DNA from: an uncultured Candidatus Melainabacteria bacterium | Lineage (GTDB): Bacteria > Cyanobacteriota > Vampirovibrionia > Gastranaerophilales > Gastranaerophilaceae | Direction: 5' to 3' | DNA: 39,774 bases | Assembly: GCA_947361615.1 (NCBI GenBank) | Contig: CANAJP010000013.1 | Coordinates: forward strand, 1 to 39,774 | In this document: piece after piece, positions 7,324 through 31,337 of the stretch | How positions within the stretch are numbered: position 1 is the stretch's first letter | Layout of the letters: each line of letters starts with the position of its first letter | Made by a program: the position numbers and the translations under genes | Notes under the pieces: model-generated | Databases searched by the model: none | What the model saw: the letters and a program-made list of their open reading frames with translations, nothing else | Told to the model about the DNA's origin: nothing

Positions 7324-7352
7324 TTGACTAATTAATAAATATGCTACATAAT
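7324..7352 (+). promoter_or_regulatory. Sigma-70-type promoter of the poly-G prepilin gene
   Basis: TTGACT, a 17-base spacer, then CATAAT. The predicted leader (about 7360-7426) contains two small hairpins, GCCGC-TGA-GCGGC and TGGCG-ATA-CGCCA. The second lies directly before the ribosome binding site GAAAGGA. Confidence 0.6.
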
Positions 7353-7426
7353 ACAAATAAAGAAAGGATGTGCCGCTGAGCGGCTTCCATAATTAGATAA
7401 TGGCGATACGCCAAGAAAGGATTATT

Positions 7427-8447
7427 ATGAAACGAAGACTTGTAAACATGTTATCAGGGGGGGGGGGGGCGTTTCTTAACCGCCTTTACTATGGCGGAGA
7501 TATTGCTTTCCCTAACGATTATTGGTGTAGTTGCAGCGATAACACTTCCGTCATTAACTGGTAACATTAACGAACGAACATGGAATACTCAGCGTAAAGC
7601 CCTTTATGCTCGAATGAGTCAGGCAATTTCTCTTATGCCGGCGTTGAACGGGTATGGAACGGTTATGCAGGCGACATCTTCAGCATCTGCTATCGATACA
7701 GCCGCAGAAACTTTTATTACCGCAGGATTATCTAAGGTCTTTAAAATTAATAATATCTGTGGAGAAAAGCTTGAGGACTGTGGAATAGTCAGCAAGTATA
7801 CTGATTTGAAAGGTACTCAAAAGCCGATGCCAAAATCTCTTAGTGAATTACATTCTACGCTTGTAAGTCGTCCAGCTTTTAATGTTGGAGTTACATCTTT
7901 CCCGGCGTTTACGCAAAATAATGTGAAGGCTGCGGCCTTTGAAACTGCTAATGGAGAAAGCATTCTACTTTTCTACAATCCAACATGTGTTTCATCTCTT
8001 GGCGAGAAAGGTACAAGTCTTGTTATGCAAAGTAAAATGTGTGCCAATTTAATCTATGACCTCAATGGTAGTAAGGGGCCGAACACTGTCGGTAAGGATA
8101 TTGGGATTATGACAATTTATTATCCTATTGACAGTATGGTTGTTACTGTACAGCCTGCAACACAAGATGCAGCCGGAGGTGCTGCTGTTGTGGGTGCTGC
8201 CACAAATGGAGCTTGTGCGGCAATGGATTCAGAATATAGGATGCCAAATCTGGAGGAATTAGCTGCAATTTATATTAACTCAAATATGTTTGGTCGAAAT
8301 TTGTCTGGTGCTTACTGGGCTTCAACGAGGTTTGTTAATCATAATAACCTTGTTCAATGGCATATTTCTATGGGAACAGGTATTCTCGGATGGGATCCAA
8401 CAACGGATACTTCTAAATTACGAAAAGTTCTCTGCGTAAAAAGATAG
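7427..8447 (+). CDS. Type IV prepilin-like protein with a DUF1566-like C-terminus; reading frame broken at a poly-G tract
   Basis: ATG 7427 has a good ribosome binding site (AAGAAAGGA) and starts MKRRLVNMLSGGGG. A run of 13 G (7457-7469) then shifts the frame by one base. The long open frame (from ATG 7491, MAEILLSLTIIGVV...) carries the rest. With 12 G the two join as ...SGGGGRFLTAFTMAEILL, a classic prepilin leader: a short basic N-terminus, a cleavage site before FTMAE with the conserved Glu at mature position 5, and a hydrophobic helix. The last ~80 residues, with YRMPNLEELAAIY, YWAST and LCVKR, resemble DUF1566/Fibrobacter-type lectin-like domains. The protein is probably a surface or secreted pseudopilin. 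As read it is off, either by genuine phase variation or by a homopolymer sequencing error. Confidence 0.8.
7457..7469. repeat. Poly-G tract (13 G), candidate phase-variation switch
   Basis: Thirteen consecutive G residues fall between codon 10 and the prepilin cleavage region. The upstream start (7427) and the prepilin frame (7491) are 64 bases apart, which is one more than a multiple of three. Tract lengths of 9, 12 or 15 would therefore restore the full protein. Confidence 0.95.
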
Positions 8448-8453
8448 AATAAT

Positions 8454-8489
8454 AAAACGGCGGGAGTTTAAAAAAACTCCCGCCGTTTT
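8454..8489. terminator. Bidirectional rho-independent terminator
   Basis: A perfect 16-bp stem (AAAACGGCGGGAGTTT and its complement) with an AAAA loop sits between the convergent prepilin gene and the DUF1858 gene. A/T runs on both sides make it usable from either strand. Confidence 0.92.
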
Positions 8490-8491
8490 AA

Positions 8492-14401: not shown

Positions 14402-14751
14402 AATAAAGCAGGTCATAAGCCGTGTTCTGTTTCCCGGTAATCATCTGTCTTGGATTCACATTACTGTGAACCACCAGCGATTTTGTCTGAAGATGGCGGG
14501 CCGCCTTAACCTTCAATTTAATCTTGCATCCAATCGGGGGTTGCCTTGACGCGTTATCTCTCGACTCCGCCGGTAAGCTCTTACCTTACCGTTGCACCAT
14601 TGCCTGTGATTTGAAATCCATCGGCTGTATGTTTTCTGTGGTCCTATCCACCGGTTCACACCGTCCGGACTTTCTCCGGCGATTTGCCCTGAGATGCACG
14701 GACTTTCCTCACTCCCTTCGAGCGGAAGCGCGATTACCCGTCTGCTTTATT
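14402..14751 (-). ncRNA. rnpB: RNase P RNA (bacterial type A)
   Basis: The catalytic RNA that trims tRNA 5' leaders. Read on the minus strand, the 5' and 3' ends pair perfectly as helix P1 (AATAAAGCAG with CTGCTTTATT). The universal box GAGGAAAGTCCGTGC follows near the 5' end, then CCGGAGAAAGTCCGGACGG, and near the 3' end the conserved ACACGGCTTATGACCTGC. The ~350-nt length is normal. It starts only four bases after the stop of the prepilin gene, so its promoter must lie inside that gene or it is processed from a joint transcript. A terminator follows directly. Confidence 0.96.
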
Positions 14752-14755
14752 AAAA

Positions 14756-15445
14756 TTAGTCTTCATCACCGCCAATAAGTTTTGTTTTGCCGGAGAGAAT
14801 ATTGATAAACGCATCTTGTCCGCCAAGCACTTTTAATTGGCCGTTAGGTGTAATTGTGATTGAAATTCTGTCGAATTTTTTCTTCTGAACATTTTTTAAA
14901 TCTGAATTACAAGATGCTCCCCAAGTGTCTGCAGTACCGCACGCCTTTAATGAAGTACCGTTATAAGCGTTTACACCATCATCCTTACCATCAACATCTA
15001 TCTCAATTGTTCCGTTGGTAGTTGCAGATGTGCCGACTGTTTGAAGTCCGGAAATGTTCCAGGTCATACCATCCATAGTTGTGATTGTGGTTGGTGATGT
15101 TGTACCTGTACAAGCTGTAGCAAGATCATCTTTAATGTTTAATTTTGAGGCAAACAAACAAGGTAATTTAGCGCTGCCATTAATATTTATTGCTGCATTG
15201 AATGGGCTTTTTACTGCATCTCTGTTGTCAAAACCAACAGTACCATCTTTTTCCGGATAGTACGCTGCATCATTTATCAGGCTCTGAATTATAGTTTCTG
15301 TTGCGTAATATGCTTTTTTCATCATTATAGCATTTTTGTTCGGGGTCATTTGTAATATTACCGGAACCGATGCCGCGATAATTATGCCCAGAACAAGCAT
15401 TGCGATTAATATTTCGGATAAAGTGAATCCTTGTAATTTTCTCAT
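14756..15445 (-). CDS. Type IV prepilin-like (pseudopilin) protein
   Basis: The leader MRKLQG is cut by prepilin peptidase before FTLSEILIAMLVLGIIIAAS, which has the conserved Glu at mature position 5 and the hydrophobic assembly helix. The remaining ~200 residues are polar, with four cysteines (one pair in KACGTADTWGASCNSD) and no known domain. I chose ATG 15445 because GAGG is ten bases upstream; for the in-frame ATG 15454 the same site is one base away. It ends KLIGGDED just before rnpB. It probably belongs to a type IV pilus or type II secretion-like system encoded elsewhere. Confidence 0.88.
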   Translation of the reverse strand: MRKLQGFTLSEILIAMLVLGIIIAASVPVILQMTPNKNAIMMKKAYYATETIIQSLINDAAYYPEKDGTVGFDNRDAVKSPFNAAININGSAKLPCLFASKLNIKDDLATACTGTTSPTTITTMDGMTWNISGLQTVGTSATTNGTIEIDVDGKDDGVNAYNGTSLKACGTADTWGASCNSDLKNVQKKKFDRISITITPNGQLKVLGGQDAFINILSGKTKLIGGDED

Positions 15446-15628
15446 GATTTTCATACCTCGTAATGTTCACATTATATCATATTTGAATGAGTATTTCAAT
15501 ATGTGTTAAGTATATTGGTAAAAAGTTGAGGTTTTAGATGTTTTATTGCGCGTAGGTGGGATTTATTTATTTGCCTAATACCTGATAATGTATTTGTTAC
15601 TATTGGCCCACCGCCAGAAAGGACTATT

Positions 15629-15913
15629 ATGAAAAACGAAAAAGAAAAAGAAACTTTAAAAGAAAAAATGGCTGATACTGCCGAAAAAGCTAAAGAAAAA
15701 GCAAAAGAGGTAAAAGAAGACCTTAAAGCAGGCGCTGAAAAAGTAAAAGAAAAAGTTCATGAAACTAGCGAGCGCGTAAAAGATGGAGCTGTGAAGATGG
15801 GAGAAAAAGCTCACGAAACCGGCGAGCATATTAAAGAAAAGGCGCATGAGGCGAAAGAGAAAGTCGCTGAAAAAATTGATGAAGCCAAAAATAAAAAGAA
15901 AGATAAGGCATAG
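15629..15913 (+). CDS. LEA-like charged repeat protein, 94 aa
   Basis: Almost the whole protein is a Lys/Glu/Ala amphipathic helix of repeating ~11-residue units (variants of EKAKEKVHETGERVK), like group 3 LEA and apolipoprotein-like stress proteins. It has no signal peptide, cysteine, tryptophan or proline-rich segment. Such proteins usually protect membranes or proteins under dehydration or other stress; that role is inferred from composition only. It has a good ribosome binding site (GAAAGGA) preceded by a small hairpin (TTGGC...GCCA), the same arrangement as upstream of the prepilin at 7427. A terminator follows at 15928-15959. Confidence 0.75.
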   Translation: MKNEKEKETLKEKMADTAEKAKEKAKEVKEDLKAGAEKVKEKVHETSERVKDGAVKMGEKAHETGEHIKEKAHEAKEKVAEKIDEAKNKKKDKA

Positions 15914-15927
15914 TTTATTTTTATTTT

Positions 15928-15959
15928 AAAAAGAGGTGCTTAACAAAGTGCCTCTTTTT
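15928..15959 (+). terminator. Rho-independent terminator after the LEA-like gene
   Basis: A nine-bp stem (AAAAAGAGG / CCTCTTTTT), a 14-base loop and a T run on the plus strand, 15 bases after the stop codon. Confidence 0.85.
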
Positions 15960-15971
15960 GTGCATGGGACG

Positions 15972-16001
15972 TTGACAAAGGATGGTTTTTTACTATATAA
16001 T
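15972..16001 (+). promoter_or_regulatory. Consensus sigma-70 promoter of the autotransporter gene
   Basis: Perfect TTGACA and perfect TATAAT hexamers separated by 18 bases, about 30 bases upstream of the start codon. This is the best promoter in the window and suggests strong constitutive transcription. Confidence 0.88.
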
Positions 16002-16033
16002 ACATATTTATTAAGCAGGATTAAGGATTAATT

Positions 16034-19000
16034 ATGAAAAAGAAATACAAGTCGTTTTTAATGGCCTGTGCAGCGGTTATGCTTTGTTGCACAATTAATA
16101 GTGAAAAGTCTTTGGGTTTGGATATCGTTGAAGGTCAGACCTATGAAAATAAGACCGACGCTGCATATAATTCTATAATGCAGGCTTACGGTGGTATCAG
16201 CGCTACTGTAAATAGTGAAGTTCGTAGTGTTAATAATACTTTTAGAAATAATACTAATACGCACGGTGGTGCTTATGGAATGCCCGGTGGCGGCGGCGTA
16301 ATTTACAACTTTAACGGTTCGGTTTTTATTGACGGAAGTACCTTTGACTCAAACAAAAGTACTGCTGATATTAGTAAAGCAGGCGGCGGTGCTTTGATGT
16401 TACATAGTACAAAATCTGGCACTATTTCTGACGCTAATTTTATAAATAACTCTGCGGTGCGTGACGGCGGTGCGATTTATATGAACGGCACTAAGAATAT
16501 TGTTATTTCGGATTCAAATTTTACAGGTAACCACGCCGGTGGTTACGGTGGTGCAATAAGGCTTAATAATGTTTCTATTAATGATAGTTCTATTGCTCAC
16601 GCAATTCACGATACTGTTTTTGAACAAAACTCTGCGACTGAGGGTGGAGCTATATATGTAGATGGAACAGTTGCTTCATTTGATAATCTGACTTTTAATG
16701 AAAACACAGCTAAGGCTGGCGGTGCAATAGCAATTTATCCAAGCAGCTCACTGGCACAGGGGATAACTATCAATAACAGCCATTTTACAGGTAATATTGC
16801 AGATGAAAACGGCGGCGCAATTTATTCACTGGGTACTTTCAAGGTTAATGGTGGTGAGTTTTCTAAAAACGAAGCTCGTCAAGGTGGTGCAATTTATATT
16901 GCGAATGACGACCCGAACATTATTGAAAATACAGTGTTTACCGGTAACAAATCGGAATATCTCGGCGGTGCCATTGCTGTAAATGAGGGAACTGTACAAA
17001 TTAATAACAGCAGATTTGAGGGCAACCATGCAGGAACACGTGGTGGCGCGATTACGTTTGTTGTAAAACAAAATAATACCTCTGAAGCTAACCCGATGAA
17101 ATCGTTGTTGATTTATAACACAGATTTTGTTAATAACACAAACAATCAAAATAGCGGCGGTGCTATTTATGTAAATGTTTCACAGGACCCTGCGATTCGT
17201 GGTCTTAAAATGGTGAAAATCGTTTCTAATGACGGTAAAACACATGAATTTACCGGAAACATGCATAATATTGATGACACTTACGGTTCACCGGAATCCA
17301 ATGCTTTATATATTGATAGTGGTACAGTCCAGCTTCAAACAACCGGTGAAGGCAGCAGATTGCTATTTAACGACGGTATTGCTGGTTCTAACTGGTCAAC
17401 TACCAATGCAAAACTTGAATTAAACGGTGATATCGTTTTCAACGGGCAGGTTAAAAATATCGAGGTAACACAACAGGGTGGAACTTTAACGCTTAATCAG
17501 GCTGAAAGCAGTAATCTTGCTGAGGGCAAGGCTATCATGGAGAATGTCGACCTTTATCTTGACGGTGGTAAGCTTGATATGGCAAATGGTAAGCTTGATA
17601 CGCTTAACCTCGGAAACTTTGAAGCGAGAAATTCAGAAGATATTCAACTAGCGTTCGACGCTGACCTTTCACAAGGAAAAAGCGATTTTATCAATGTTTC
17701 TAAAGAAATGTCAGGCGGGTTAAAATTTGACGCCGAACACGTTGATATAAAAATTAAAGACGGGAAAGCGGATAGTTTCCAATTATTTAACAGAATCGGT
17801 GAGGATTTTGAATGGGCCACAGGCGATGAGTTGGTTCAATACAGTGACAAAAGAAAATACACGCTTTCACTTGGCGAAGATGGTATTGTTAATGTCGCAA
17901 GCGATACGACAAACGGACTTGTGGATGCAATTATCGCGGAAGGTGCTAGAGTTTATCGTTCTGATGTGGATATCACGCTTGAAGATGCAGATTCACTCGG
18001 GGCTATGGGTGGCGAGTATTTGAAAATAAACCTTGACGGTGCAGATTTAGACGGTGCTGGTAAAGGCGGTATTATTGTTGCTGACGACCAAAGACTGGAA
18101 ATGGTTAATATGGGGCTTAGCAACGGCGCTAAATCCGTTCATAACTTCAACGGTTCTGTTGTTGATAACGCAGGTGAATTAACTGTTATGGAATCTGTGT
18201 TCAAAAATAATTCAACAGAATTAAGCGGCGGCGTTCTTAATAACACAGGTGTTGCGAGAATTTATAACTCATCTTTTATTGATAATAATGCAGGTGTTAA
18301 CGGCGGTGCGATTAACAACAGCGGAAACCTGACTATTACGGCTGATAAACGGGATATAGTTTTCTCCCGAAATACTGCAAACGGTGTTGGAAATGATATT
18401 CACATGGAAAAAGCCGTTGTTCCTGATGTTGAGGAAGAAGCAGTTGCTCTGAATGTAGATACAACGCCGACTTTGACTCTGAACGGCGCTAAAAATATTA
18501 CTTTCCACGGTGGAATTAGCGGTGTTGGTAACATTATAAAAGAGGATTATGGAACATTAAAACTCGGCGGTGATAACAGCAATTACACAGGTGATGTTCA
18601 CTTTAACGCCGGCGAAACTATTCTTTTAAAAGATTCTAAATATTTCTCTGCGGCAAATACATATTTTGAAAACGGTTCTATGTTGAACCTTATTAACAAT
18701 CAGGCTAATTCCGTGAATTTTGGGAACCTTCATCTTGACGGTGATGGCGGCAGACTTGGCTTAGATGTTAATATGATTAATGGTGAACACGACTCAATTG
18801 CCGCTAGCAGTGTAACAGGTGATGGAAAACTTATTATTGATAAAGTTAATGTCCTTTATGATAACAGAGATTTAAAACCTGTTACAATGTTTGATATTGT
18901 TGAAAAAGATGCTGATGGAAATAGTCCGTTGCTCGGTAGAGTTGAACTTAATCCGAACACAGCAACCGAAGCTTACGGCCCTATTTACAGATACGGCGTG

Positions 19001-20032
19001 GAATATAAACCGGAAACAGGACAAATGTTGTTCTCCGGTGCAGGCGGAAAGGATTACAAAGGCTACAACCCTGCTGTAATGACAGGGCCTGTCGGTGCGC
19101 TTGTCGGTGCATATCTTACACAGTTGAATTCTTACGAGATGGCATTTAATAATATGGATATGTTTATGCTTATGCCACGTGAGAAAAGAGATGCAATTAA
19201 ACATAGAAATATTTTCGCTTCAACACAGGGCGGGCCATATTCTCCAACGCTTAACCCGCATGAAGAAAAAGGTGCATGGGTTAAGCCTTACAGTACTTTT
19301 GAAAACGTAGGTCTTAGCAATGGCCCGAAAGTTCATAACGTTGCATACGGTTCATTCTTCGGTGTTGACTCAGATTTGACAAGATTAAAACACGGATTTG
19401 ACGGAATTTTGTCATTCTATGCAGGATACAACGGAAGCCACCAAACTTATAACGGCAACGGAATATACCAAAATGGCGGTCAGCTTGGTGTAACCGGTAT
19501 CGCTTATAAAGAAAATTTCTTTACAGCATTGACAGCAAACGTTGGTGCTAATATCGGTGAAGCCAGCACAATGTATGGAAACGATAATTTTACAATGCTT
19601 ATGGCCGGTATTGCTTCTAAAACAGGTTATAACTGGGAACTTGCAAAAGGCAGATTTATCGTTCAGCCTAGTTATTTGATGTCATACAGTTTTGTTAATA
19701 CATTTGATTACCATAATGCTGCCGGTGTTAGCTTGAACTCAGATGCTCTGAACGTTATTCAAATCAATCCAGGGTTGAAGTTTATCGGAAACCTGAAAAA
19801 CGGCTGGCAGCCTTACCTCGGGTTCTCAATCGTTTGGAATATCATGGATGATACGAAATTCCGCGCGAATGATGTTGCGCTTCCACAATTAAGTATTGAC
19901 CCTTATTTCAATTATGGGCTCGGGGTTCAAAAAACCGCTGGTGAAAGAATGACAGGCTTCTTACAAGCTATGTTTAGATCCGGCGGAAGATCAGGTGTAG
20001 GCTTACAATTCGCATTCAGATATAAGTTGTAA
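16034..20032 (+). CDS. Pmp-type autotransporter (polymorphic outer-membrane-protein repeats plus beta-barrel)
   Basis: A 1332-residue surface protein. Residues 1-29 form a signal peptide (MKKKYKSFLMACAAVMLCC...). The passenger contains about a dozen GGA[IL] motifs, each near an FxxN or SxFxxN motif, between residues ~115 and ~390 and again near 745-760. These are the polymorphic-membrane-protein repeats known from chlamydial adhesins and predict a beta-helix. A serine/glycine-rich PL-type stalk follows (LKLGGDNSNYTGDVHFNAGE near 850). The last ~260 residues look like an autotransporter beta-barrel ending in GVGLQFAFRYKL; the final residue is Leu rather than the usual Phe/Trp. Probable role: adhesion or surface display, inferred. 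A perfect promoter lies upstream. Confidence 0.9.
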   Translation: MKKKYKSFLMACAAVMLCCTINSEKSLGLDIVEGQTYENKTDAAYNSIMQAYGGISATVNSEVRSVNNTFRNNTNTHGGAYGMPGGGGVIYNFNGSVFIDGSTFDSNKSTADISKAGGGALMLHSTKSGTISDANFINNSAVRDGGAIYMNGTKNIVISDSNFTGNHAGGYGGAIRLNNVSINDSSIAHAIHDTVFEQNSATEGGAIYVDGTVASFDNLTFNENTAKAGGAIAIYPSSSLAQGITINNSHFTGNIADENGGAIYSLGTFKVNGGEFSKNEARQGGAIYIANDDPNIIENTVFTGNKSEYLGGAIAVNEGTVQINNSRFEGNHAGTRGGAITFVVKQNNTSEANPMKSLLIYNTDFVNNTNNQNSGGAIYVNVSQDPAIRGLKMVKIVSNDGKTHEFTGNMHNIDDTYGSPESNALYIDSGTVQLQTTGEGSRLLFNDGIAGSNWSTTNAKLELNGDIVFNGQVKNIEVTQQGGTLTLNQAESSNLAEGKAIMENVDLYLDGGKLDMANGKLDTLNLGNFEARNSEDIQLAFDADLSQGKSDFINVSKEMSGGLKFDAEHVDIKIKDGKADSFQLFNRIGEDFEWATGDELVQYSDKRKYTLSLGEDGIVNVASDTTNGLVDAIIAEGARVYRSDVDITLEDADSLGAMGGEYLKINLDGADLDGAGKGGIIVADDQRLEMVNMGLSNGAKSVHNFNGSVVDNAGELTVMESVFKNNSTELSGGVLNNTGVARIYNSSFIDNNAGVNGGAINNSGNLTITADKRDIVFSRNTANGVGNDIHMEKAVVPDVEEEAVALNVDTTPTLTLNGAKNITFHGGISGVGNIIKEDYGTLKLGGDNSNYTGDVHFNAGETILLKDSKYFSAANTYFENGSMLNLINNQANSVNFGNLHLDGDGGRLGLDVNMINGEHDSIAASSVTGDGKLIIDKVNVLYDNRDLKPVTMFDIVEKDADGNSPLLGRVELNPNTATEAYGPIYRYGVEYKPETGQMLFSGAGGKDYKGYNPAVMTGPVGALVGAYLTQLNSYEMAFNNMDMFMLMPREKRDAIKHRNIFASTQGGPYSPTLNPHEEKGAWVKPYSTFENVGLSNGPKVHNVAYGSFFGVDSDLTRLKHGFDGILSFYAGYNGSHQTYNGNGIYQNGGQLGVTGIAYKENFFTALTANVGANIGEASTMYGNDNFTMLMAGIASKTGYNWELAKGRFIVQPSYLMSYSFVNTFDYHNAAGVSLNSDALNVIQINPGLKFIGNLKNGWQPYLGFSIVWNIMDDTKFRANDVALPQLSIDPYFNYGLGVQKTAGERMTGFLQAMFRSGGRSGVGLQFAFRYKL

Positions 20033-20084
20033 GGACTTGTATAAGTTAGCCGTAAAAATATCTATACGGGTAATAAAATTTATT

Positions 20085-20136
20085 TTGCCGTTATAAAACA
20101 ATATTTTTATGAAAAAAATATTTATTATAACGGCAA
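20085..20136 (+). promoter_or_regulatory. Long inverted repeat enclosing the start codon of the MlaA-hydrolase gene
   Basis: TTGCCGTTATAA (20085-20096) and TTATAACGGCAA (20125-20136) are perfect 12-base inverted repeats. Between them AATATTTTT and AAAAAATATT can pair further, leaving the ATG (20109) in a tiny loop. No Shine-Dalgarno sequence is visible. The hairpin could limit translation or act as a thermosensor-like or processing element. Confidence 0.7.
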
Positions 20137-22196
20137 TTTTATTATGTCTGACCGGTGCGGCAGGCGCTGATGAACTTATTAAACAGCAGGCTAAATACCC
20201 TGATTACGGATATATGTATCTTGGCCCTGATAAGTTCGAAAAACTTAATAGAAAGATGTTCGCGTTTAACCTCGGGCTTAACAAATACGCGGTGCGACCG
20301 GTTCATATTCTGTGGTCATCAATTATGCCTGAGTATGGTATCGAACGTATTCACAGTGCGTACAAAAACATTGAATATCCTAAAAGGCTTGTAAGCAGTT
20401 TGCTTCAAAAGGATTTTAAAACTTCAGGCCAGGAAACCGTAAGATTTTTAACAAATACCACGTTGGGGCTTGGTGGAATGTTTGACCCCGCAAAAAGATT
20501 TTTCCATATTGAACCTACAACCGAAGACATGGAACAGGCTTTGACAAAATGTAAATGCTGTTCGGGGCCATTTATTGTGCTTCCGGGGCTTGCAGGCGCT
20601 ACAACACGTGGTATGGCAGGAAGGGTTCTGGATATGTCGCTTAACCCGACAACTTACGTCGGAACTCCGGTTCTTGCAATGGTAAAAGCAGGTTTGACCG
20701 TAAACAGAACCTCATATATGCAGCCTTTGATTAAAATGATAGAATCGACTTATGCTGATCCTTATGAAATTGCGCGTAAAATGTACGGTTTGGATAGTTA
20801 TATTAAAAGCGAAAACTTTGACAGAAAACACGTACTTGAAAACGGGTTTAAAAATTTGGAAGAACCGACGGAACAGGAAAACGCAGAACTCGTTGAGTTG
20901 CGTGGTCTTGATACTTGCGGAGATGAGTTGATTCTCACACGGATTGACAGCGGCGAAAAAAAGGTTGAAGATAATCTCGTTGAAAGCAACACTGCAAATG
21001 TTCCTGCACTTGAAGCTGATATGGTTTTACCTGATTATAATCCGCAGTGTCCTGTTGTAGATTCAATGCGCACGGCTCTTTTTGATCTGCCTGATGTGGA
21101 TTCTTCTATTTGGAACGAACTTTCCATCTGGAACAGATGTTTCAGCAAAAAAATTAAAACTTCATCTGTTAGCGTAACACCGGACAAAGAAGAGTATAAA
21201 TTCCGCTATATTCTGCAAAAAGATAAAAATTCGCCGCTTGCAATAATTTATCCGTCGATCGGTGAGGGAATTCAATCCCACCATTCTGTTATTATGGCAA
21301 AACTTTTCTATGACGCAGGCTATTCCGTTGTAATTCAAGGCAGTCATTTTCAGTGGGAATACGTAAAAAGCATGCCCGACGATTACCGCCCCGGAATTCC
21401 TGCTAAAGATGCGGAGTTCCTGAAAAATGTTACCGCAAAAATTGTTGAAAAACTTCAAACCAAATACGACTGTCAGTTTGGCGAAAAAACAATTATCGGA
21501 ACTTCACTCGGTGCAATGATGACGCTTTTCGTTGCTAATAGTGAGTATAAGGAGGATACCCTCGGCGTTACAAAATATATTTCAATCTGTCCGCCAATCG
21601 AACTTACATATGCGCTTGAACAGGTCGACAAAAACGGCGAGGAATGGTATAAAAATCCTAACGATTTGAAAAATAGAGTTGCACAAACCGCCTCTAAAGT
21701 TGTTCAGCTTTCTAATATGAAAGATGAGCAAAAAGATTTTAAAATCGGAACCCTTCCATTTACCGAAGAAGAGGGAAAACTTATAACAGGGTTTGTAATG
21801 CACCAGAAACTTTCGGATTTAATTTTTACGCTTGAAAAAGCTCCGAAAACTCAGGCTACCGGTATATATGATGTTTTGAACAACATGAACTACCACGATT
21901 ATATGGAAAAATATTTTATCGGGCAGGAATACCGTAATGTTCAGGCATTAAGCTATGACACGAGCCTTTTATCTCTTGCACCGTATTTAAAAAACGGTTC
22001 GAACTATAAAATTTACCACTCGATAGATGACTATCTTGTAAACCGGAAACAATTGAAAAACCTTAAAGCGCTTTCTGGTGCTAAAACTGTGCTTTTGAGT
22101 AACGGCGCCCACCTTGGATTTATGTATACACCGGAATTCATCGGCGACTTGAAAAAGGAAATCGTATTAAACGAAAAAGTTTCAATGATGGAATAA
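20109..22196 (+). CDS. MlaA (VacJ) domain fused to an alpha/beta-hydrolase domain
   Basis: A 695-residue exported protein. Residues 1-20 are a signal peptide ending GAAGA; there is no lipobox cysteine, unlike most MlaA proteins. Residues ~40-235 match MlaA, the outer-membrane part of the Mla phospholipid-transport system: LNRKMFAFNLGLNKYAVRPV, VRFLTNTTLGLGGMFDPAKR, TEDMEQALTKCKCCSGPFIV. A linker of ~120 polar residues follows. Residues ~365-690 form an alpha/beta hydrolase with nucleophile elbow GTSLG (Ser466), probable acid Asp640 or Asp641 and His668 in NGAHLGF. An envelope lipase or acyl-ester hydrolase coupled to lipid transport is an attractive inference. The substrate is unknown. A terminator follows at once. 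Confidence 0.85.
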   Translation: MKKIFIITAILLCLTGAAGADELIKQQAKYPDYGYMYLGPDKFEKLNRKMFAFNLGLNKYAVRPVHILWSSIMPEYGIERIHSAYKNIEYPKRLVSSLLQKDFKTSGQETVRFLTNTTLGLGGMFDPAKRFFHIEPTTEDMEQALTKCKCCSGPFIVLPGLAGATTRGMAGRVLDMSLNPTTYVGTPVLAMVKAGLTVNRTSYMQPLIKMIESTYADPYEIARKMYGLDSYIKSENFDRKHVLENGFKNLEEPTEQENAELVELRGLDTCGDELILTRIDSGEKKVEDNLVESNTANVPALEADMVLPDYNPQCPVVDSMRTALFDLPDVDSSIWNELSIWNRCFSKKIKTSSVSVTPDKEEYKFRYILQKDKNSPLAIIYPSIGEGIQSHHSVIMAKLFYDAGYSVVIQGSHFQWEYVKSMPDDYRPGIPAKDAEFLKNVTAKIVEKLQTKYDCQFGEKTIIGTSLGAMMTLFVANSEYKEDTLGVTKYISICPPIELTYALEQVDKNGEEWYKNPNDLKNRVAQTASKVVQLSNMKDEQKDFKIGTLPFTEEEGKLITGFVMHQKLSDLIFTLEKAPKTQATGIYDVLNNMNYHDYMEKYFIGQEYRNVQALSYDTSLLSLAPYLKNGSNYKIYHSIDDYLVNRKQLKNLKALSGAKTVLLSNGAHLGFMYTPEFIGDLKKEIVLNEKVSMME

Positions 22197-23910: not shown

Positions 23911-25053
23911 ATGAAAAATCGAGCAGGTTATTTTAAATCAAATTTATCAGGTGAAATGGAATACAAATCTTTTGTTCCGTCTGTTTTGCCGCCTAATCCT
24001 ACAATAGAATTAAGCAATGATATTGTAGAAATACTTGTTAAAGCAAATAAACAGCTTGCTTTACTTGAAGGTATTGCAACAAGAATTCCTAATATGGATT
24101 TGTTTATCTCTATGTATGTAAGAAAAGAAGCATTGATGTCCTCGCAAATTGAAGGAACACAGGCAACTTTAGAAGATGTTCTTGACCCATGTTTAGAAGA
24201 AAACACTAATAGACCTGTTGGTGATGTTGTAAATTATATCAAGGCAACTGATTTTGCGATAAATAAGTTAAAAGAACTTCCTTTGTGCAATAGGCTAATC
24301 AAGCAAGCACACGAAGTTTTGTTATCGGGTGTTAGAGGTGAAAATAAAAGTCCGGGTGAATTTAGGCATTCTCAAAATTGGATAGGTGCAGCTGGTTGCA
24401 ATTTGCAAAATGCCAGATTTGTACCACCAAATGTTGTTGATATGAATGAGGCAATGTCAGATTTAGAAAAATATATTAACTCTGAAGATGATTTGGATGT
24501 GTTAATTCGTGCTGGATTGATTCATTATCAATTTGAAACTATTCACCCATTCTTAGACGGAAACGGTAGAATCGGACGCCTGTTAATTACTCTATTCTTA
24601 ATAGAAAAACAAGTTTTAAGCACTCCTGCATTATACATTTCATATTTTCTAAAGAAGAACAGAATTGAATATTATGATCGCATGAGTGAAGTTCGGTTAA
24701 AGGGCAATTACGAACAATGGGTTAAATTTTTCTTAGAAGCGGTTTATGAATCCGCAAAAGACGCAACCGAAACGATTGATAAATTGATTGCGTTGCACGA
24801 CAAAAACTGTGTAAAGGTTGAAGAACTGGGACGCCGTGCTAAAAATGCAATGAGAGTGTTTGAATATTTAGAGGCAAATCCTATTATAGAAATTCAAAAG
24901 ACAGCAAAAGAGCTTGATATAGCGTTTAATACAATGTCTAGCATAGTTAAAGATTTATCTAGTATCGGCGTCCTCGAGCAAACTTCAACGCAATCAAGAA
25001 ATAGAACTTTTGCCTATAACGAGTATTTGGAAATACTAAAAGAGGGTACATAA
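23911..25053 (+). CDS. Fic-domain protein (probable AMP-transferase) with inhibitory helix and winged-helix tail
   Basis: Fic enzymes usually move AMP from ATP to a hydroxyl on a target protein. The active-site motif HPFLDGNGRIGR (212-223) is complete. The N-terminal helix carries the inhibitory motif SSQIEG (77-82), matching [S/T]xxxE[G/N], so this is an autoinhibited class II Fic. Residues ~305-380 form a winged-helix DNA-binding domain (KTAKELDIAFNTMSSIVKDL). The 380-residue layout is common for Fic proteins on mobile DNA. The stop codon touches the ATG of the OLD gene, so it is the first gene of a three-gene operon. It may act as effector, toxin or operon regulator; the sequence does not decide. 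Confidence 0.93.
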   Translation: MKNRAGYFKSNLSGEMEYKSFVPSVLPPNPTIELSNDIVEILVKANKQLALLEGIATRIPNMDLFISMYVRKEALMSSQIEGTQATLEDVLDPCLEENTNRPVGDVVNYIKATDFAINKLKELPLCNRLIKQAHEVLLSGVRGENKSPGEFRHSQNWIGAAGCNLQNARFVPPNVVDMNEAMSDLEKYINSEDDLDVLIRAGLIHYQFETIHPFLDGNGRIGRLLITLFLIEKQVLSTPALYISYFLKKNRIEYYDRMSEVRLKGNYEQWVKFFLEAVYESAKDATETIDKLIALHDKNCVKVEELGRRAKNAMRVFEYLEANPIIEIQKTAKELDIAFNTMSSIVKDLSSIGVLEQTSTQSRNRTFAYNEYLEILKEGT

Positions 25054-26652
25054 ATGATAAAAAAGGTAAGAATTCAAAATTATAAACAGTTTAAAGATAT
25101 TACCATATCATTTAATGAAGGCTGTAATATAATTATTGGCAATAACGATGCAGGGAAAACATCGCTATTGGAAGCAATTAATTTAGCCTTAACCGCAAAA
25201 TTATATGGTCGTGGTATTATTCAAGAGCTATCTCCATATTTATTTAATCAAGAACTTGTTAATCAATATGTGAATGATGTTAAACTGGGAACAAATCCTG
25301 CCTTACCAGAAATTATTATAGAAGTGATTTTTGATGATTCTTTTGAAGACAAAAGTTTTCAGGGGCCAAACAATAGTTTAGAAGAAGATTGTTGTGGAGT
25401 TTCATTAAGAATTCACTTTGATAAAGCCTTTCAAAAGGAATATGAAAATTATAAAGCAGAAACTGAAGAAATTACCAATATACCTATTGAATACTATACA
25501 TATGAATGGCTTTCTTTCGCATATGGAAATGATAAATTTACAAAATTACCATTAAGAACACATTTAATTAATAATATTGAACACAGATATAATAATGGTG
25601 TTGATAAATATATTGCCTCTCTTATTGAATACAATTTAGGAAGTAAAGATAAAGCTTTGCTAGCATTAAAATATAGGAAATTGAAAGAAGATTTTATAGA
25701 AGACCCTAAAATAACAGAAATAAACGACAAATTTACAAAAGAAGAATTTAAAATATCTGATAAAAAGACAATTGTATCTATAGACACCTCAGCAAAAGCC
25801 TCTTGGGATTCAACTTTATCATTATATTTGAATGATATACCATTTAGATTTATTGGAAAGGGAGAACAAAATTCAATCAAAACAAAGTTAGCCATTAAAG
25901 CTCATATTGAAAAAGCTAGTCTTATAATGATAGAAGAACCAGAAACAAGCCTTTCTTATTCAAATTTGAACAAATTAATTAATAACATTGAAGAGCTTTG
26001 CAAAGAAAAACAAATTATCATTACAACACATAGTTCTTTTGTAATGAACAAATCTGGCTTGGAAAAAACTATATTACTTAATGGTGATAGTTGGTTGTCA
26101 ATTAAAAATTTAGATAAAGAAACATATGACTATTTTAAAAAATTACCAGGCTTTGATACTTTGAGAATGATTTTATCTAGAAAAACAATTTTAGTTGAAG
26201 GTCCATCTGATGAATTAATTGTCCAAAAAGCATATAAAGATAAGTATGATAAACTACCAATTGAAAATGGTATTGATGTTGTATCTGTTAGGGGGTTGTC
26301 ATTTAAACGCTTTTTAAGTATATCAAAAATTTTAGGTAATAAAATCGTAGTTATTACTGATAATGATGGCAAGATAAACGCATTAGAAAATAAATACAAA
26401 GATTATAAAGACTGTTCAAATATCAAATTGTGCTGGTCAACAGATAAAACACTAAAAACTTTAGAACCTAATATTTTAGCTTGCAATAATATTGATAAAT
26501 TAAAGGAAATATTCGATAAAACAGATATGACAAATGATAAATTTATTGAATATTTTCAAACTAATAAAACAGAAGTTGCATTAAGAATATTTGAGACTGA
26601 AAAAGGAGCTGTGAAATTTCCACAGTATATAGAAGATGCCATTTCAGAATAA
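25054..26652 (+). CDS. OLD-family ATPase/TOPRIM nuclease (GajA-like)
   Basis: N-terminal ABC/SMC-type ATPase: Walker A GNNDAGKTS (29-37), signature-like GKGEQNS, Walker B SLIMIEEPETSLS (about 289-301) and H-loop TTHSS. The C-terminus is a TOPRIM domain with KTILVEGPSDELI (Glu near 383) and VVITDNDGK (acidic pair near 433-435). This order, followed by a UvrD-like helicase gene, defines class 2 OLD proteins, including GajA of the Gabija anti-phage system. GajA is a DNA nicking endonuclease held off by nucleotides and released when phage replication depletes them; that is family knowledge. The 532-residue length is somewhat short. It follows fic with no gap and overlaps the helicase gene by 17 bases. 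Confidence 0.9.
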   Translation: MIKKVRIQNYKQFKDITISFNEGCNIIIGNNDAGKTSLLEAINLALTAKLYGRGIIQELSPYLFNQELVNQYVNDVKLGTNPALPEIIIEVIFDDSFEDKSFQGPNNSLEEDCCGVSLRIHFDKAFQKEYENYKAETEEITNIPIEYYTYEWLSFAYGNDKFTKLPLRTHLINNIEHRYNNGVDKYIASLIEYNLGSKDKALLALKYRKLKEDFIEDPKITEINDKFTKEEFKISDKKTIVSIDTSAKASWDSTLSLYLNDIPFRFIGKGEQNSIKTKLAIKAHIEKASLIMIEEPETSLSYSNLNKLINNIEELCKEKQIIITTHSSFVMNKSGLEKTILLNGDSWLSIKNLDKETYDYFKKLPGFDTLRMILSRKTILVEGPSDELIVQKAYKDKYDKLPIENGIDVVSVRGLSFKRFLSISKILGNKIVVITDNDGKINALENKYKDYKDCSNIKLCWSTDKTLKTLEPNILACNNIDKLKEIFDKTDMTNDKFIEYFQTNKTEVALRIFETEKGAVKFPQYIEDAISE

Positions 26653-27766
26653 CTATTTTTTACATGCTGTTGCTGGTTCAGGCAAAACAACAAAACTTGT
26701 AAAACTAGCACTTAGAGCTAAGAATAAAAAAATACTCATAACAACATATACCAATAAAAATACAAATGAGATAAAAAATAAAATTATTGAAAAATTTGGA
26801 TATATTCCGGAAAATATAGAAGTAAAAACCTGGTTTGGCTTCTTATTGAGTGATTGTATAAGACCATATCAGAGAGTTTTGGGGCTAACAAGAAGAGTCT
26901 CTGATATGTATTTTACAGTACAGGATCCACATAATAAAAAACTTCCAAATGGGACTATAATAAAAACAGCTAAACGTGAAGATGGTATAAAATATTATAT
27001 GAACAAAGAAAACAAGATATACTCTTGTTTCTTATCAGACTTTGCTTGTAGCTGCAATCACAAAACAAAAGGAGCTTTAATAAAACGAATAGAAAAATGT
27101 TACGATTATATTTTCGTCGATGAAGCTCAAGATTTATCAGGTTGGGATTTTAGCTTTTTAGATTTATTACTTCATTCTAATTCTAAAATTTTAATAGTTG
27201 GAGATATGCGACAAAATTTATTTGATACACATAAATCAAATAAAAATAAAAAATATGCAGAAAATTTACATTTATACTTTATAGATAAACAGAAACAAAA
27301 ACTTGGTAAATTAAAAGAAATGATTGTAAGTTATAGATGTAACCAAATAATATGCGATTTTGCGGATAAACTTCATAAAGATTTACCTCCCACAAAATCG
27401 TTAAATTTAGAGCAAAATTCCCACTCTGGAATTTTTTATATAACGGAAAATCAAATAGAACAATACGTTCAGGCCTTTTCACCTAAGATTTTAGTATGGA
27501 ATAAGGGAAATAAAATATGTAAATTATATAAATCTTTAAATTTGGGAGATTCAAAAGGATTAACTTTTGATAGAGTTATTATTTCTCCAACAGCAGAAAT
27601 TACAAATTATTTAAAGCTAGGTAATTTTTCTAAAGAATCTTTAGTTGTTAAAAACAAATTATATGTTGGAATTACACGAGCAAAATACAGTGTAGCTTTT
27701 ATTGTTAAAGATAATGAAGATTTATCAAAATATGCATTTAGTGAAATAATTCAATGGAAGAATTAA
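26636..27766 (+). CDS. UvrD/PcrA-like SF1A helicase (GajB-like)
   Basis: The motifs occur in order: HAVAGSGKTTKL (10-21, Walker A), TTYTNKNTNEI (motif Ia), YIFVDEAQDLSGWDF (about 158-172, motif II), ILIVGDMRQNLF (motif III), SYRCNQIICDFA (motif IV), DSKGLTFDRVII (motif V) and LYVGITRAKYS (about 341-351, motif VI). At 376 residues it is much shorter than UvrD (~720) and even than typical GajB (~490), so it probably lacks large 1B/2B insertions. Its start lies inside the end of the OLD gene without a strong ribosome binding site, implying translational coupling. In Gabija, GajB binds the GajA tetramer and senses DNA ends. Confidence 0.9.
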   Translation: MPFQNNYFLHAVAGSGKTTKLVKLALRAKNKKILITTYTNKNTNEIKNKIIEKFGYIPENIEVKTWFGFLLSDCIRPYQRVLGLTRRVSDMYFTVQDPHNKKLPNGTIIKTAKREDGIKYYMNKENKIYSCFLSDFACSCNHKTKGALIKRIEKCYDYIFVDEAQDLSGWDFSFLDLLLHSNSKILIVGDMRQNLFDTHKSNKNKKYAENLHLYFIDKQKQKLGKLKEMIVSYRCNQIICDFADKLHKDLPPTKSLNLEQNSHSGIFYITENQIEQYVQAFSPKILVWNKGNKICKLYKSLNLGDSKGLTFDRVIISPTAEITNYLKLGNFSKESLVVKNKLYVGITRAKYSVAFIVKDNEDLSKYAFSEIIQWKN

Positions 27767-28699
27767 TTAATTTTCGTTAAACATATCTTCATCAATTTTT
27801 TTTATCAAAATAGTTTCTTCTAATTGGACACCGATATTATATTCAATCATAAGCTTTGCCAATGCTTGTCCATCAATTAAAATGATTGTATCACTAACTT
27901 CTTTTGCACATTTTTTAGCAGCTTCTGTATACTTAGAAGTAGTAATAAATACCCCTTTAGTAGCCTGTTTTTGCCGTAATGCACCCACAAATTTTTGAAT
28001 TTCAGGTCCTGATACTGTTGCTTTATTCCACATTTTAGCTTGAATATATACTTTATCGAGCCCCAAAACATCCTGTTTAATAATACCATCTATGCCTTCA
28101 TCGCCAGACTTGCCTTTTAATTGAATTATATCATCATACGAACTACCATATCCCATATTTACTAATAATTTAGCAACAATTTCTTCAAAAAAGCTAGAGT
28201 CATTCTTAGCTAATAATTTTTCAAGTAAATCATTTTCTAAATTCGTATTCAGAGTATCTCTACCTGTATAAATCATATCATATGGTGTTTGCGTATTCTC
28301 TAATTCAATGTCTTCCTTTTGGATTTCCTTGTTTACTTTTTTAGTAGAAGTATTACTTAATTTCTTAAACTCACAAAAAGAATCAAATTGTTTTAAGTAA
28401 TTATTGTCTATTGTTTTAGGGTTAGACTTAAGAACTTTCAAACCTAAATCCGTAATTTTAGACATATTTCTTTGAGGATAATATATTAAACCTGCTTTTT
28501 TTAAATATGTTCTTGCCCAATGAACACGATCATGAAAAATTCTTTTTGGATTGTTAGAATAACGCATAGCTTGGTCTTCTTTAGATAACTTTAATCTATC
28601 GGCTACAGCATTTGTAATTTCTGTTCCATTATGTTCGAATCCATCTCCTAAAAATATAAGTACAGGATACATTAATTTTTCATAATCAGGTATTGGCAT
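27767..28699 (-). CDS. Mrr-like restriction endonuclease
   Basis: The N-terminal Mrr winged-helix domain starts MPIPDYEKLMYPVLIFLGDG. The C-terminal Mrr_cat domain has SGDEGIDGIIKQDVLGLDKV (catalytic Asp) then YIQAKMW (QxK in place of ExK), the standard Mrr nuclease signature. Mrr-family enzymes cut methylated or otherwise modified DNA, or act as guardians against foreign DNA. I chose ATG 28699 (310 aa) because GAGGAAA lies seven bases upstream and the N-terminus then matches the family; an upstream start at 28777 would overlap the helicase gene and add 26 atypical residues. It is 58 bases after the helicase stop on the same strand, probably one operon, and ends tail-to-tail with the GajB-like gene. 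Confidence 0.9.
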   Translation of the reverse strand: MPIPDYEKLMYPVLIFLGDGFEHNGTEITNAVADRLKLSKEDQAMRYSNNPKRIFHDRVHWARTYLKKAGLIYYPQRNMSKITDLGLKVLKSNPKTIDNNYLKQFDSFCEFKKLSNTSTKKVNKEIQKEDIELENTQTPYDMIYTGRDTLNTNLENDLLEKLLAKNDSSFFEEIVAKLLVNMGYGSSYDDIIQLKGKSGDEGIDGIIKQDVLGLDKVYIQAKMWNKATVSGPEIQKFVGALRQKQATKGVFITTSKYTEAAKKCAKEVSDTIILIDGQALAKLMIEYNIGVQLEETILIKKIDEDMFNEN

Positions 28700-28757
28700 A
28701 ATATTTCCTCTATTCTTAGGAATATTTTCGCATTTCAAAAAATAAAAACAAGTAGTA

Positions 28758-31337
28758 TCAGTTAAGTATCGAATCAAGTGTATTTCTTAATATCATTTCT
28801 TCATTACTACCATTTGTCTTAAATCTTAAAAATGTAATATCGTATTTTGTCAAAATATTATTTTTTAAGATATCTCTTTCTGCTTGTGGAGTTCCATCTT
28901 CATGGTATGCAACTCCATCAACTTCAATTGCTAATAAAGGTGATTTATCAATTGTTTTATATATGACAAAGTCAATATGAGTTAAAGGATTAAGTACATA
29001 TTGTTTTTCCCTACCTGCTTCCAATAGATTCTTATTTTTAATAAGAGATTTTAATGGTACATGAATTGCGACCTCAAATTGATTTTTATAATATTTTTCT
29101 AAGACTTCTGATAAAAAATTATATGTAATATTTTCACTATCATAATTTGAAACTTTTTTCTGCTTTGATAGAATTTCATTTTTTCTTGATTCATAACACT
29201 TATACAAATAATCAAAAATTGAATAAACATTACTTTCTACAACATCAAAATTATTATATTTTATGTAGTTTATAAGGTCACTAATATTTTTATCTTTTGA
29301 AATTTCACCTGAATCCACAATCAAAAATAACTGTTCAATTGCTCTCGAAACCGCAACATTCAATCTGTTTGAATTATCTGTAAAATCACTTATTTCATTA
29401 TCAACAGTTGAGATTATAATAACTTTATTTTCTTGTCCCTGAAATTTGTCTACAGTATCAGCTTTTACGGTTGTATTTTTGAATGTCTTTTTTAAAGCTG
29501 CAGTTTGATTTCTATATGGTGTTACTATTCCAACAGAACAATCATCAAGACACAAATTATATTTTGGAATAATTTCTTGAGTTATAACGTCAATTTGTCT
29601 TTGGTTGTAGTGATTTCTATCATGGTTTCCTTCTGTTGTATAATACAAAACCAAAGGCATTTTATTTGTTTGAACATCACTTAGAATAATTAATTCGTTA
29701 TTATAAAACTTTTTATTACAAAACTCTATGATTTTAGAATGACAACGATAATGTTCTTTTAGTAATGTAGTTGGTGCCCCTTCAAAGAGTTCTGCTATTG
29801 AAGATAATAAACAATGATTTTTGTATCTGTATTTTTCATTTATATTATATTGTGAAAAGATTTTATCCGTAGCTCTTGCAATTTCTGACGTAACAACATT
29901 AGGTAACTGTTTTAAATCCCCAACAATTACAGCTTTTGGGGCACAAGCTAATGCTAAAGCACCTGTGCATAAATCTACTTGCGAAGCTTCATCAATAATG
30001 ACATAGTCATACATAACATCATTTGCTAGACAGTTTTTCAAAGAATATGTTGTGCTCAAAATTACAGGATAATCTTGAATAAATCTTAAAGATTTTGATT
30101 TAAGTTCATCTAATTTGTATGTATCTCTTTCTTTAGAGTTATATTTTTTGTAAAGTTCATTTTTAAATACTTCAGCAGATAAATTTGTATATTCTTTCAT
30201 CTTAGAATCGAAATCATAAAAAGATAACTCTTTTTCTATGTTATTTATGTTTGATTCCAATTCTTTAAACTTTAATTCATAAAATTTTCTTTGAAATTGA
30301 ACTTTTAAAAATTCAAGAGTGTATTCCCCATTTTTAATTAAATTGTGTAAGGTTAATCTTCTTTTATCCCAAAATTTTAGATGCTCTGATAAAATGAATA
30401 AAATTTTTATAATTATATTTTCATGATAGATTTCAATATAATTATCACACGCAAAAATCATATCTAACATTTGAGTTGAATTTCTTGCGTTTCTTATGCA
30501 TTTAGGGTCTTGTCTTATTTCAAATGTTTTATAATAATCTTGAAAATGTTTAAATTCGACTTCTATATCGGAAAGCTCTTGTCTTAGTAGTGCTAATTTA
30601 TTTTGAGACTCTAACTTTTCTTTTAACTCTTGATATTCGAGATTTAATTTTTTATGTAAATTATCAAGTTTTTCTGATTCTATATACCAATTTTCAATGT
30701 TTGGTAATGGTGATTGTGAGTTTATGAATTCTTGTTTATTTTCAAGGTTTCCAAGATATGCAGCAATAAAATCAACATCATATTTTTTCAACTTATCTAA
30801 CACATTTTGAGTTGCAGAATTATTGCTAGAAACAACTGCAACACTTTGGCCGGACATAACAATATTTGCAATTATATTCAATATAGTTTGCGTCTTGCCT
30901 GTACCGGGCGGGCCTTGAATTATACTTAACTCATTTGATAAGGCTTTATTTACAGCTTGCGCTTGGCTATTATTAAATCCAAAAGGATATACAACGTTTT
31001 GCTTAAATTCACAATTATTAGAAATCCTTTGACTAAGGAATTTAGCTAACATACTATCATTATCTATAAACTTTATTTTGTTATAATTAGATAATAAAAT
31101 ATTTTTTCCATTTTTTTCTAAACCAACAGCACCTGCAATATCTTTTAGATAGTTAAAACAAATTTTTGATTTCCTATCCTTGAGAGCTGATTCGATTACT
31201 TTGACGTTATATGCTGCATAAGTATATTGTTTCCCATTATTAAAGACAACATTGTATTTGTTCCCGATTTTTTTATATTTAACAACTTTGTTTGTACATT
31301 CTTTACCTTTTAAAAATATGCGAAAATCTTTTGTCAT
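28758..31337 (-). CDS. SF1 (UPF1-like) helicase with C-terminal DUF2726-like nuclease domain
   Basis: An 859-residue protein. Residues 1-120 are an unassigned beta-rich region. The helicase motifs are SIIQGPPGTGKTQT (138-151), YDYVIIDEASQVDL (about 441-454), AVIVGDLKQLPN, KEHYRCHSKII, DKFQGQENKVIIIS and RLNVAVSRAIEQL. A coiled-coil-like insert (about 215-400) splits them. The last ~150 residues carry HIDFVIYK and LLAIEVDGVAYHEDG, then an arginine/lysine-rich helix and ITFLRFKTNG, which match the DUF2726/Vsr-like PD-(D/E)xK fold. Single-protein helicase-nucleases of this sort occur in defence islands. A TATTAT -10-like sequence lies right before the ATG and no Shine-Dalgarno is seen, so the message may be leaderless. 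Confidence 0.85.
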   Translation of the reverse strand: MTKDFRIFLKGKECTNKVVKYKKIGNKYNVVFNNGKQYTYAAYNVKVIESALKDRKSKICFNYLKDIAGAVGLEKNGKNILLSNYNKIKFIDNDSMLAKFLSQRISNNCEFKQNVVYPFGFNNSQAQAVNKALSNELSIIQGPPGTGKTQTILNIIANIVMSGQSVAVVSSNNSATQNVLDKLKKYDVDFIAAYLGNLENKQEFINSQSPLPNIENWYIESEKLDNLHKKLNLEYQELKEKLESQNKLALLRQELSDIEVEFKHFQDYYKTFEIRQDPKCIRNARNSTQMLDMIFACDNYIEIYHENIIIKILFILSEHLKFWDKRRLTLHNLIKNGEYTLEFLKVQFQRKFYELKFKELESNINNIEKELSFYDFDSKMKEYTNLSAEVFKNELYKKYNSKERDTYKLDELKSKSLRFIQDYPVILSTTYSLKNCLANDVMYDYVIIDEASQVDLCTGALALACAPKAVIVGDLKQLPNVVTSEIARATDKIFSQYNINEKYRYKNHCLLSSIAELFEGAPTTLLKEHYRCHSKIIEFCNKKFYNNELIILSDVQTNKMPLVLYYTTEGNHDRNHYNQRQIDVITQEIIPKYNLCLDDCSVGIVTPYRNQTAALKKTFKNTTVKADTVDKFQGQENKVIIISTVDNEISDFTDNSNRLNVAVSRAIEQLFLIVDSGEISKDKNISDLINYIKYNNFDVVESNVYSIFDYLYKCYESRKNEILSKQKKVSNYDSENITYNFLSEVLEKYYKNQFEVAIHVPLKSLIKNKNLLEAGREKQYVLNPLTHIDFVIYKTIDKSPLLAIEVDGVAYHEDGTPQAERDILKNNILTKYDITFLRFKTNGSNEEMILRNTLDSILN

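Follow-up and report, generated by a model that had tools for sequence, protein, structure and literature searches.

The window, a stretch of 39,774 nucleotides, belongs to a 1.83 Mb metagenome-assembled genome (G000) of the genus Candidatus Gastranaerophilus, Melainabacteria (108 contigs, 95.6% complete), and carries a gene for a type IV prepilin in which a run of 13 G residues lies between the start codon and the pilin reading frame (Table 1). The window has 35% GC and a second-longest G run of 7; the chance expectation for a G run of at least 13 is about 1e-5 to 2e-5. Directly 3′ of the tract, the prepilin frame reads cgtttcttaaccgcc followed by TTTACTATGGCGGAG; with 13 G the start frame yields a 45-aa dead-end peptide, with 11 or 14 G a product of 16–17 aa, and with 9, 12 or 15 G a prepilin of 338–340 aa, the 12 G form joining MKRRLVNMLSGGGGRFLTA to FTMAEILL. 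An earlier note on this DNA had placed 13 G residues between ATG 7427 and the FTMAEILL frame and had held that the gene is one base out of frame, with 12 G restoring the leader; both statements are confirmed, the first in the sequence and the second by translations at 9–15 G. Two criteria of translational phase variation mediated by simple sequence repeats are thus met, namely a long repeat at the 5′ end of the ORF (here 30 nt past the ATG) and toggling between complete and truncated ORFs as the repeat number changes. ATG 7491 encodes the M of the invariant FTMAE, and a product initiated there would lack the leader altogether. The terminator-like hairpin downstream suggests that this copy is its own transcription unit; the syntenic counterpart of the locus in a related genome, G004, is ungated, reading MKKTFTMMLG directly into FTMAE.

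Table 1. Coordinates of features in the window and at the diversity-generating retroelement (DGR) of G000 contig 32; class A copies are defined in the text.
Feature	Location	Strand	Basis or remark
Sigma-70-like promoter TTGACT-17-CATAAT of the prepilin gene	window 7324..7352	+	consensus scan, 10/12 matches; consensus match only
Shine-Dalgarno-like GAAAGGA, 5 nt 5′ of ATG	window 7415..7421	+	sequence; recurs in paralogs
Start codon + ten codons, MKRRLVNMLS	window 7427..7456	+	length fixed, sequence varying across class A copies
Poly-G tract, putative switch; 13 G in assembly = OFF, one above in-frame 12	window 7457..7469	+	position common to dozens of paralogs
Leader remainder RFLTA in pilin frame	window 7470..7484	+	translation
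Pilin N-terminal helix FTMAEILLSLTIIGVVAAITLPSLTGNINERTWNTQRKAL	window 7485..7604	+	practically invariant across prepilin family
Mature pilin ORF, 320 aa + stop	window 7485..8447	+	sequence
C-terminal Lcl_C-like C-type lectin domain	window 8199..8429	+	Pfam PF07603 E=7e-5, Foldseek 8q4e
Intrinsic-terminator-like hairpin, 17 bp stem, 3′ of stop codon	window 8453..8490	+	consensus match only
Gabija GajA	window 25054-26652		defence island
Gabija GajB	window 26636-27766		defence island
Type IV methyl-directed restriction enzyme	window 27767-28777	-	defence island
DGR reverse transcriptase (RT)	G000 contig 32, 14489-15754	-	
Template repeat (TR)	G000 contig 32, 16007-15845		
Avd-like ORF	G000 contig 32, 16216-16611		
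Variable repeat (VR), 3′ end of prepilin copy	G000 contig 32, 17448-17286		

Elsewhere in the window, a 1332-aa protein with Chlamydia polymorphic membrane protein repeats adjoins a 695-aa MlaA-like protein (16034–22196), the defence island (23911–31337) also encodes a SoFic-like protein and a large helicase with DUF2726, and an 859-aa protein (34811–37390) contains an archaeo-eukaryotic primase domain like those of TOTE conflict systems.

The encoded protein satisfies the criterion for a type IV prepilin, with a leader ending in A before F (TA followed by FTMAEILLSLTIIGVVAAI), a hydrophobic helix and Glu at +5; cleavage after the A, before the F at 7485, is predicted from this motif alone. 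An AlphaFold2 model built with 50 family members (mean pLDDT 84.4, pTM 0.81) places helices at residues 3–19 and 28–50, and weak matches were obtained to GspG, GspH and ComGE profiles. The C-terminal domain resembles the C-terminal domain (CTD) of Legionella Lcl (8q4e), the top bacterial match in Foldseek (prob 1.00, TMt 0.60, E=5.5e-3; 21% identity over 107 columns), which is likewise retrieved by profile search (E=7.5e-4); Foldseek also returns numerous C-type lectin chains, every one at E>0.001, and with these matches the fold criterion for a C-type lectin domain is satisfied. PF07603 is matched by 31 of 50 family members (best E 2e-9), and the window copy itself misses the Pfam gathering score for Lcl_C/DUF1566 (23.5 bits against 34.9), for which reason the domain is termed ‘Lcl-like’ rather than Lcl_C. 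Legionella Lcl is a collagen-like adhesin, whereas the window pilin lacks collagen-like repeats and carries the domain on a type IV pilin helix; a lectin or adhesin function of its ectodomain is inferred. Assembly ATPases of the T2SSE family are present in the same genome (4 matches over cut-off). No match to the prepilin peptidase family Peptidase_A24 was found in this assembly, probably a consequence of assembly incompleteness, and the peptidase is present in 6/6 sister genomes.

The window copy is one member of a large family. A genome search gave 113 matches to it in G000, where the 5′ regions were read at 90 listed places and 89 distinct copies tabulated; a start and a tract are seen in at least 54 of these, three are ungated, one has a tract without a start, and 31 end at a contig edge within 450 nt upstream, near the tract. 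The shared device consists of a start codon, 10 or 16 codons, a tract of 9–14 G and a leader that is open in the pilin frame. Most copies fall into two classes: in class A the tract starts 30 nt past the ATG, which in most of these copies is preceded by AGAAAGGA; in class B it starts 49 nt past the ATG and the conserved start region is a different one. Tracts of at least 10 G number 127 in G000 and 87–111 in five sister species, to which the poly-G prepilin device is common; a sixth sister, G006, has no such tract, and other genera of the family have between 0 and about 90. In sampled stretches of the five sister species, an automatic rule placed 72 of 92 tracts of at least 9 G upstream of a prepilin, several of the other 20 being truncations at stretch ends or prepilins that escape the motif. 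The same architecture, with 10–11 G, occurs in G042, a member of a different genus. Among named genomes the closest are Ca. Gastranaerophilus phascolarctosicola Zag_221, three Gastranaerophilales/Melainabacteria MAGs and a further one labelled Fusobacterium, in which the same family occurs; viral contigs contributed no relatives that would give independent tract lengths. The JAMPIJ01 records (L154 etc.), from a MAG titled Fusobacterium sp. NALB_7963_5, contain the Gastranaerophilus-type pilin family together with a DGR, and are apparently mislabelled.

Tracts of 10–14 G were also observed within other genes (L329, L336, L337, L341 and L343 in G000; L320 and L321 in G002), and a further genome, G019 (L299, L300), has many poly-G tracts, with no gated prepilin among the stretches that were read; from these, poly-G switching seems widespread in this bacterial family.

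Tract and FTMAE are separated by anything from 0 to over 130 codons, and repeated palindromic elements frequently make up this interval. Of 98 copies whose leaders measure at least 60 nt, 93 have the pilin frame open across it, where shuffling predicts about 14; the other two frames are open in only 0–4 copies per genome. Some of the long leaders and all of the short ones contain no in-frame alternative start, so translation must start upstream of the tract. Peptides encoded by the palindromic elements (CHPELVSGS..., MLKRVQHD...) were seen in open frame between tract and pilin helix (L014, L026, L095), lengthening the leaders of gated prepilins to over 100 residues.

Paralogs carry in-frame tracts (G9, G12) and out-of-frame tracts (G13, G11, G14). 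When frame states are counted from the conserved start, most copies are OFF and the OFF copies are concentrated in a single frame, one G in excess: the ON:+1:+2 counts are 6:38:5 in G000, 3:8:0 in G001, 4:20:1 in G002 and 5:16:1 in G004, with 82 of 89 pooled OFF copies at +1 (p=2e-17, a value that is somewhat optimistic because G002 and G004 share orthologs; G000 alone gives 38 of 43). This strong bias is absent in G003 (10:7:7) and G005 (6:9:2), and in G042 the offset is one G too few (3:0:25). Copies whose in-frame length is 12, 13 or 11 have modal lengths of 13, 14 and 12, respectively (Fisher p=1e-6 and 4e-9); the excess base tracks frame, not length, and a length equilibrium alone is ruled out, since length goes with frame class. 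States differ between orthologs (G000 L014 with G13 OFF and G005 L215 with G12 ON; G002 L151 with G12 ON and G004 L160 with G14 OFF), and the phase-variation criterion of differing lengths and states is therefore satisfied between paralogs and between species, though not between isolates of one species. Syntenic orthologs of G002 and G004 are often equal in length (13/13, 12/12). The OFF lengths are more uniform than a naive random walk of phase variation would leave them, and slippage may be slow or selection strong.

So consistent an offset in four genomes, with intact OFF ORFs behind it, could also be read as the expressed state itself, the +1 position being corrected in a fraction of products by ribosomal frameshifting or by RNA polymerase slippage on the G run to give low constitutive expression, and homopolymers of such length are slippery. 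The offset is, however, reversed in G042 and absent in G003, and the out-of-frame copies exist alongside in-frame ones and ungated ones with plain leaders; this reading is regarded as unlikely.

All tract lengths derive from metagenome assemblies, and an artefact in which every true tract is in frame and assemblies miscount G by one, up or down, has to be weighed on the same figures. In every frame class of G000, G001, G002 and G004 the mode is displaced by precisely one G, and in G042 by one in the opposite direction, as would follow from a constant miscall, and poly-G is difficult to sequence: assemblies break at prepilin tracts, and many G000 contigs (e.g. L023, L024, L025) end, beside prepilin starts, in G/C runs of 49–54 that are probably dark-cycle poly-G read artefacts. 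As a control, tracts matched in length were read in non-prepilin genes of these assemblies, preference going to those flanked on either side by long ORFs; the set is small (13) and was picked by hand from the tract table. In G000–G002, 9 of 13 control tracts are in frame against 13 of 81 prepilins (p=2e-4), and in G042 the frame is kept at 4 of 4 other 10–11 G tracts that are followed by long ORFs, against 3 of 28 prepilins (p=1e-3). These tracts make a constant +1 miscall unlikely and argue for a real, family-specific resting state, and the same assemblies contain in-frame prepilin copies; an artefact is accordingly given little weight. The possibility raised earlier, that the true length is 12 G everywhere and the assembly in error, is countered only indirectly, by these mostly in-frame tracts of equal length in other genes.

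That the consensus puts most copies out of frame might also be expected of decaying pseudogenes whose frameshifts are ordinary decay. Among 87 prepilin ORFs of G000, however, none is shorter than 250 aa, the frame is open up to the tract, and the N-termini are nearly identical: over 86 copies the first 40 residues are 99.5% identical at the amino acid level, with 4-fold sites near saturation, and over the 45 OFF copies alone they are 99.1% identical, with 4-fold sites at 0.36 (0.30 at saturation). Proteins that are never made could not stay so conserved at near-saturated synonymous sites; the OFF copies are under selection, they are not pseudogenes, and decay is scarcely credible as an explanation. 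The same near-saturation rules out recent homogenisation of the conserved N-terminus by gene conversion. This last point bears on a further proposal, in which the G tract acts as a DNA structure (G-quadruplex) that makes pilin genes recombine, like the one near Neisseria pilE, with the frame incidental. Between syntenic orthologs the start–tract–leader segment is often exchanged or replaced, with gene body and flanks staying about 89–96% identical, as such recombination might leave them; yet the frame is strongly patterned and stays open downstream, and no homogenising conversion has passed through the N-terminal codons, which leaves this proposal very improbable.

The reading preferred here, and considered highly probable, is that the tract is a slipped-strand contingency switch of a lectin-like type IV prepilin that is itself one unit of a repertoire of about 90–110 genes. 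The phase-variation switch proposed for this prepilin in the earlier note draws strong support from the architecture of the paralogs, the open frame and the selection on OFF copies. Replication slippage, which is inferred in the absence of reads, would alter the number of G residues separating the fixed start from the prepilin frame; one third of tract lengths would give the complete prepilin with its leader, and the rest a short dead-end peptide. Expression and adhesion are likewise inferences, as is the cause of the one-step bias, whereas architecture, copy number, frames, selection on OFF copies and the DGR described below rest on the sequences themselves. The repertoire would be kept mostly OFF by selection against many pilins being ON together, and slippage would be biased, towards loss in the 12–14 G tracts of Gastranaerophilus and towards gain in the 10 G tracts of G042. 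Together, these forces may gather tracts one step from ON, above the in-frame length where loss dominates and below it where gain dominates, from where single cells would be able to turn on one or a few pilins. Selection combined with biased slippage would explain why the offset is constantly one base, why it is reversed in G042 and why it does not depend on absolute length.

A second diversifying device acts on one member of the family. A complete DGR lies on contig 32 of G000 (14489–18157, L306) and satisfies the criteria for such elements, with an RT, an Avd-like protein, a TR and a VR with A-specific mismatches; in a prepilin paralog, the lectin domain serves as the VR. Mismatches between TR and VR fall at template A in 10 of 11 cases in G000, 12 of 12 in G004, 9 of 9 in G002 and 20 of 21 in G006, and a DGR RT was found in 7/7 genomes of the genus. 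The target is itself poly-G gated in G002 (G12, +1), G004 (G15, +1) and G005 (G11, in frame). In G003 and G006 it is ungated, and in G000 its start falls beyond the contig end. That the window copy is a target finds no support, since the TR matches none of the G000 loci read other than the contig 32 copy. DUF1566 domains with putative pilin structures have been reported among DGR targets (PMC6642488), and known DUF1566/C-type lectin DGRs share the RT, the Avd-like protein, the TR, the VR in a C-type lectin domain and the mismatches at template A; the element described here differs in that its target is a member of a prepilin family with poly-G switches and has a tract of its own in G002, G004 and G005. 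Whether all of this amounts to a two-layer system, with some 100 lectin-tipped pilins resting one slip from ON, a DGR acting on a poly-G-switched member, and a resting frame set by bias and selection with a genus-dependent sign, is judged evenly balanced.

Known systems offer partial likenesses. Neisseria Opa proteins are encoded by complete paralogs scattered over the genome, each switched independently in translation by a repeat of its own, as proposed for the pilin repertoire. Here, by contrast, the repeat is homopolymeric G rather than a pentamer, the genes are about tenfold more numerous and the product is a prepilin rather than an outer-membrane barrel. Neisseria pilE/pilS resembles the present family in type IV pilin diversity, with a conserved N-terminus and a variable C-terminus, but the genes described here are complete, with their own start and tract. 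Cassette conversion from silent partial copies lacking start and promoter was rejected, as copies with a visible 5′ end have their own start region, and synonymous divergence speaks against conversion of N-terminal cassettes. The Opa repertoire comprises about 11 genes (PMC3745409). The poly-G loci of Campylobacter, Helicobacter and Neisseria share with the system proposed here poly-G translational phase variation of surface genes. Campylobacter strains have 5–81 putative phase-variable genes of mixed function, with tracts peaking at 9–10 G (PMC6321876), whereas here one homologous family gives most of the 87–127 tracts of at least 10 G per genome, tracts peak at 12–14 G, OFF copies are concentrated in one frame and the lineage is one of non-photosynthetic Cyanobacteriota. 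No paper joining Gastranaerophilales with phase variation was found in the literature searched, most subscription papers lying outside that search; a study of termite Gastranaerophilus reports pilA, pilB, pilC, pilT and pilD, with no mention of the repertoire in the available part of the paper.

In practical terms, these pilins will look like frameshifted pseudogenes in annotation. About 100 replicate switches with differing in-frame lengths in one genome make the settling of a contingency repertoire into a resting state testable. If the preferred reading is true, repeat switching and DGR mutagenesis, usually separate diversifying devices, would be joined on one gene; about 5% of the genome would consist of switchable pilus adhesins (estimated by setting some 100 genes of 1 kb each against 1.83 Mb); and the family would be among the largest homopolymer-switched single gene families described, in an uncultured, non-photosynthetic sister lineage of Cyanobacteria.
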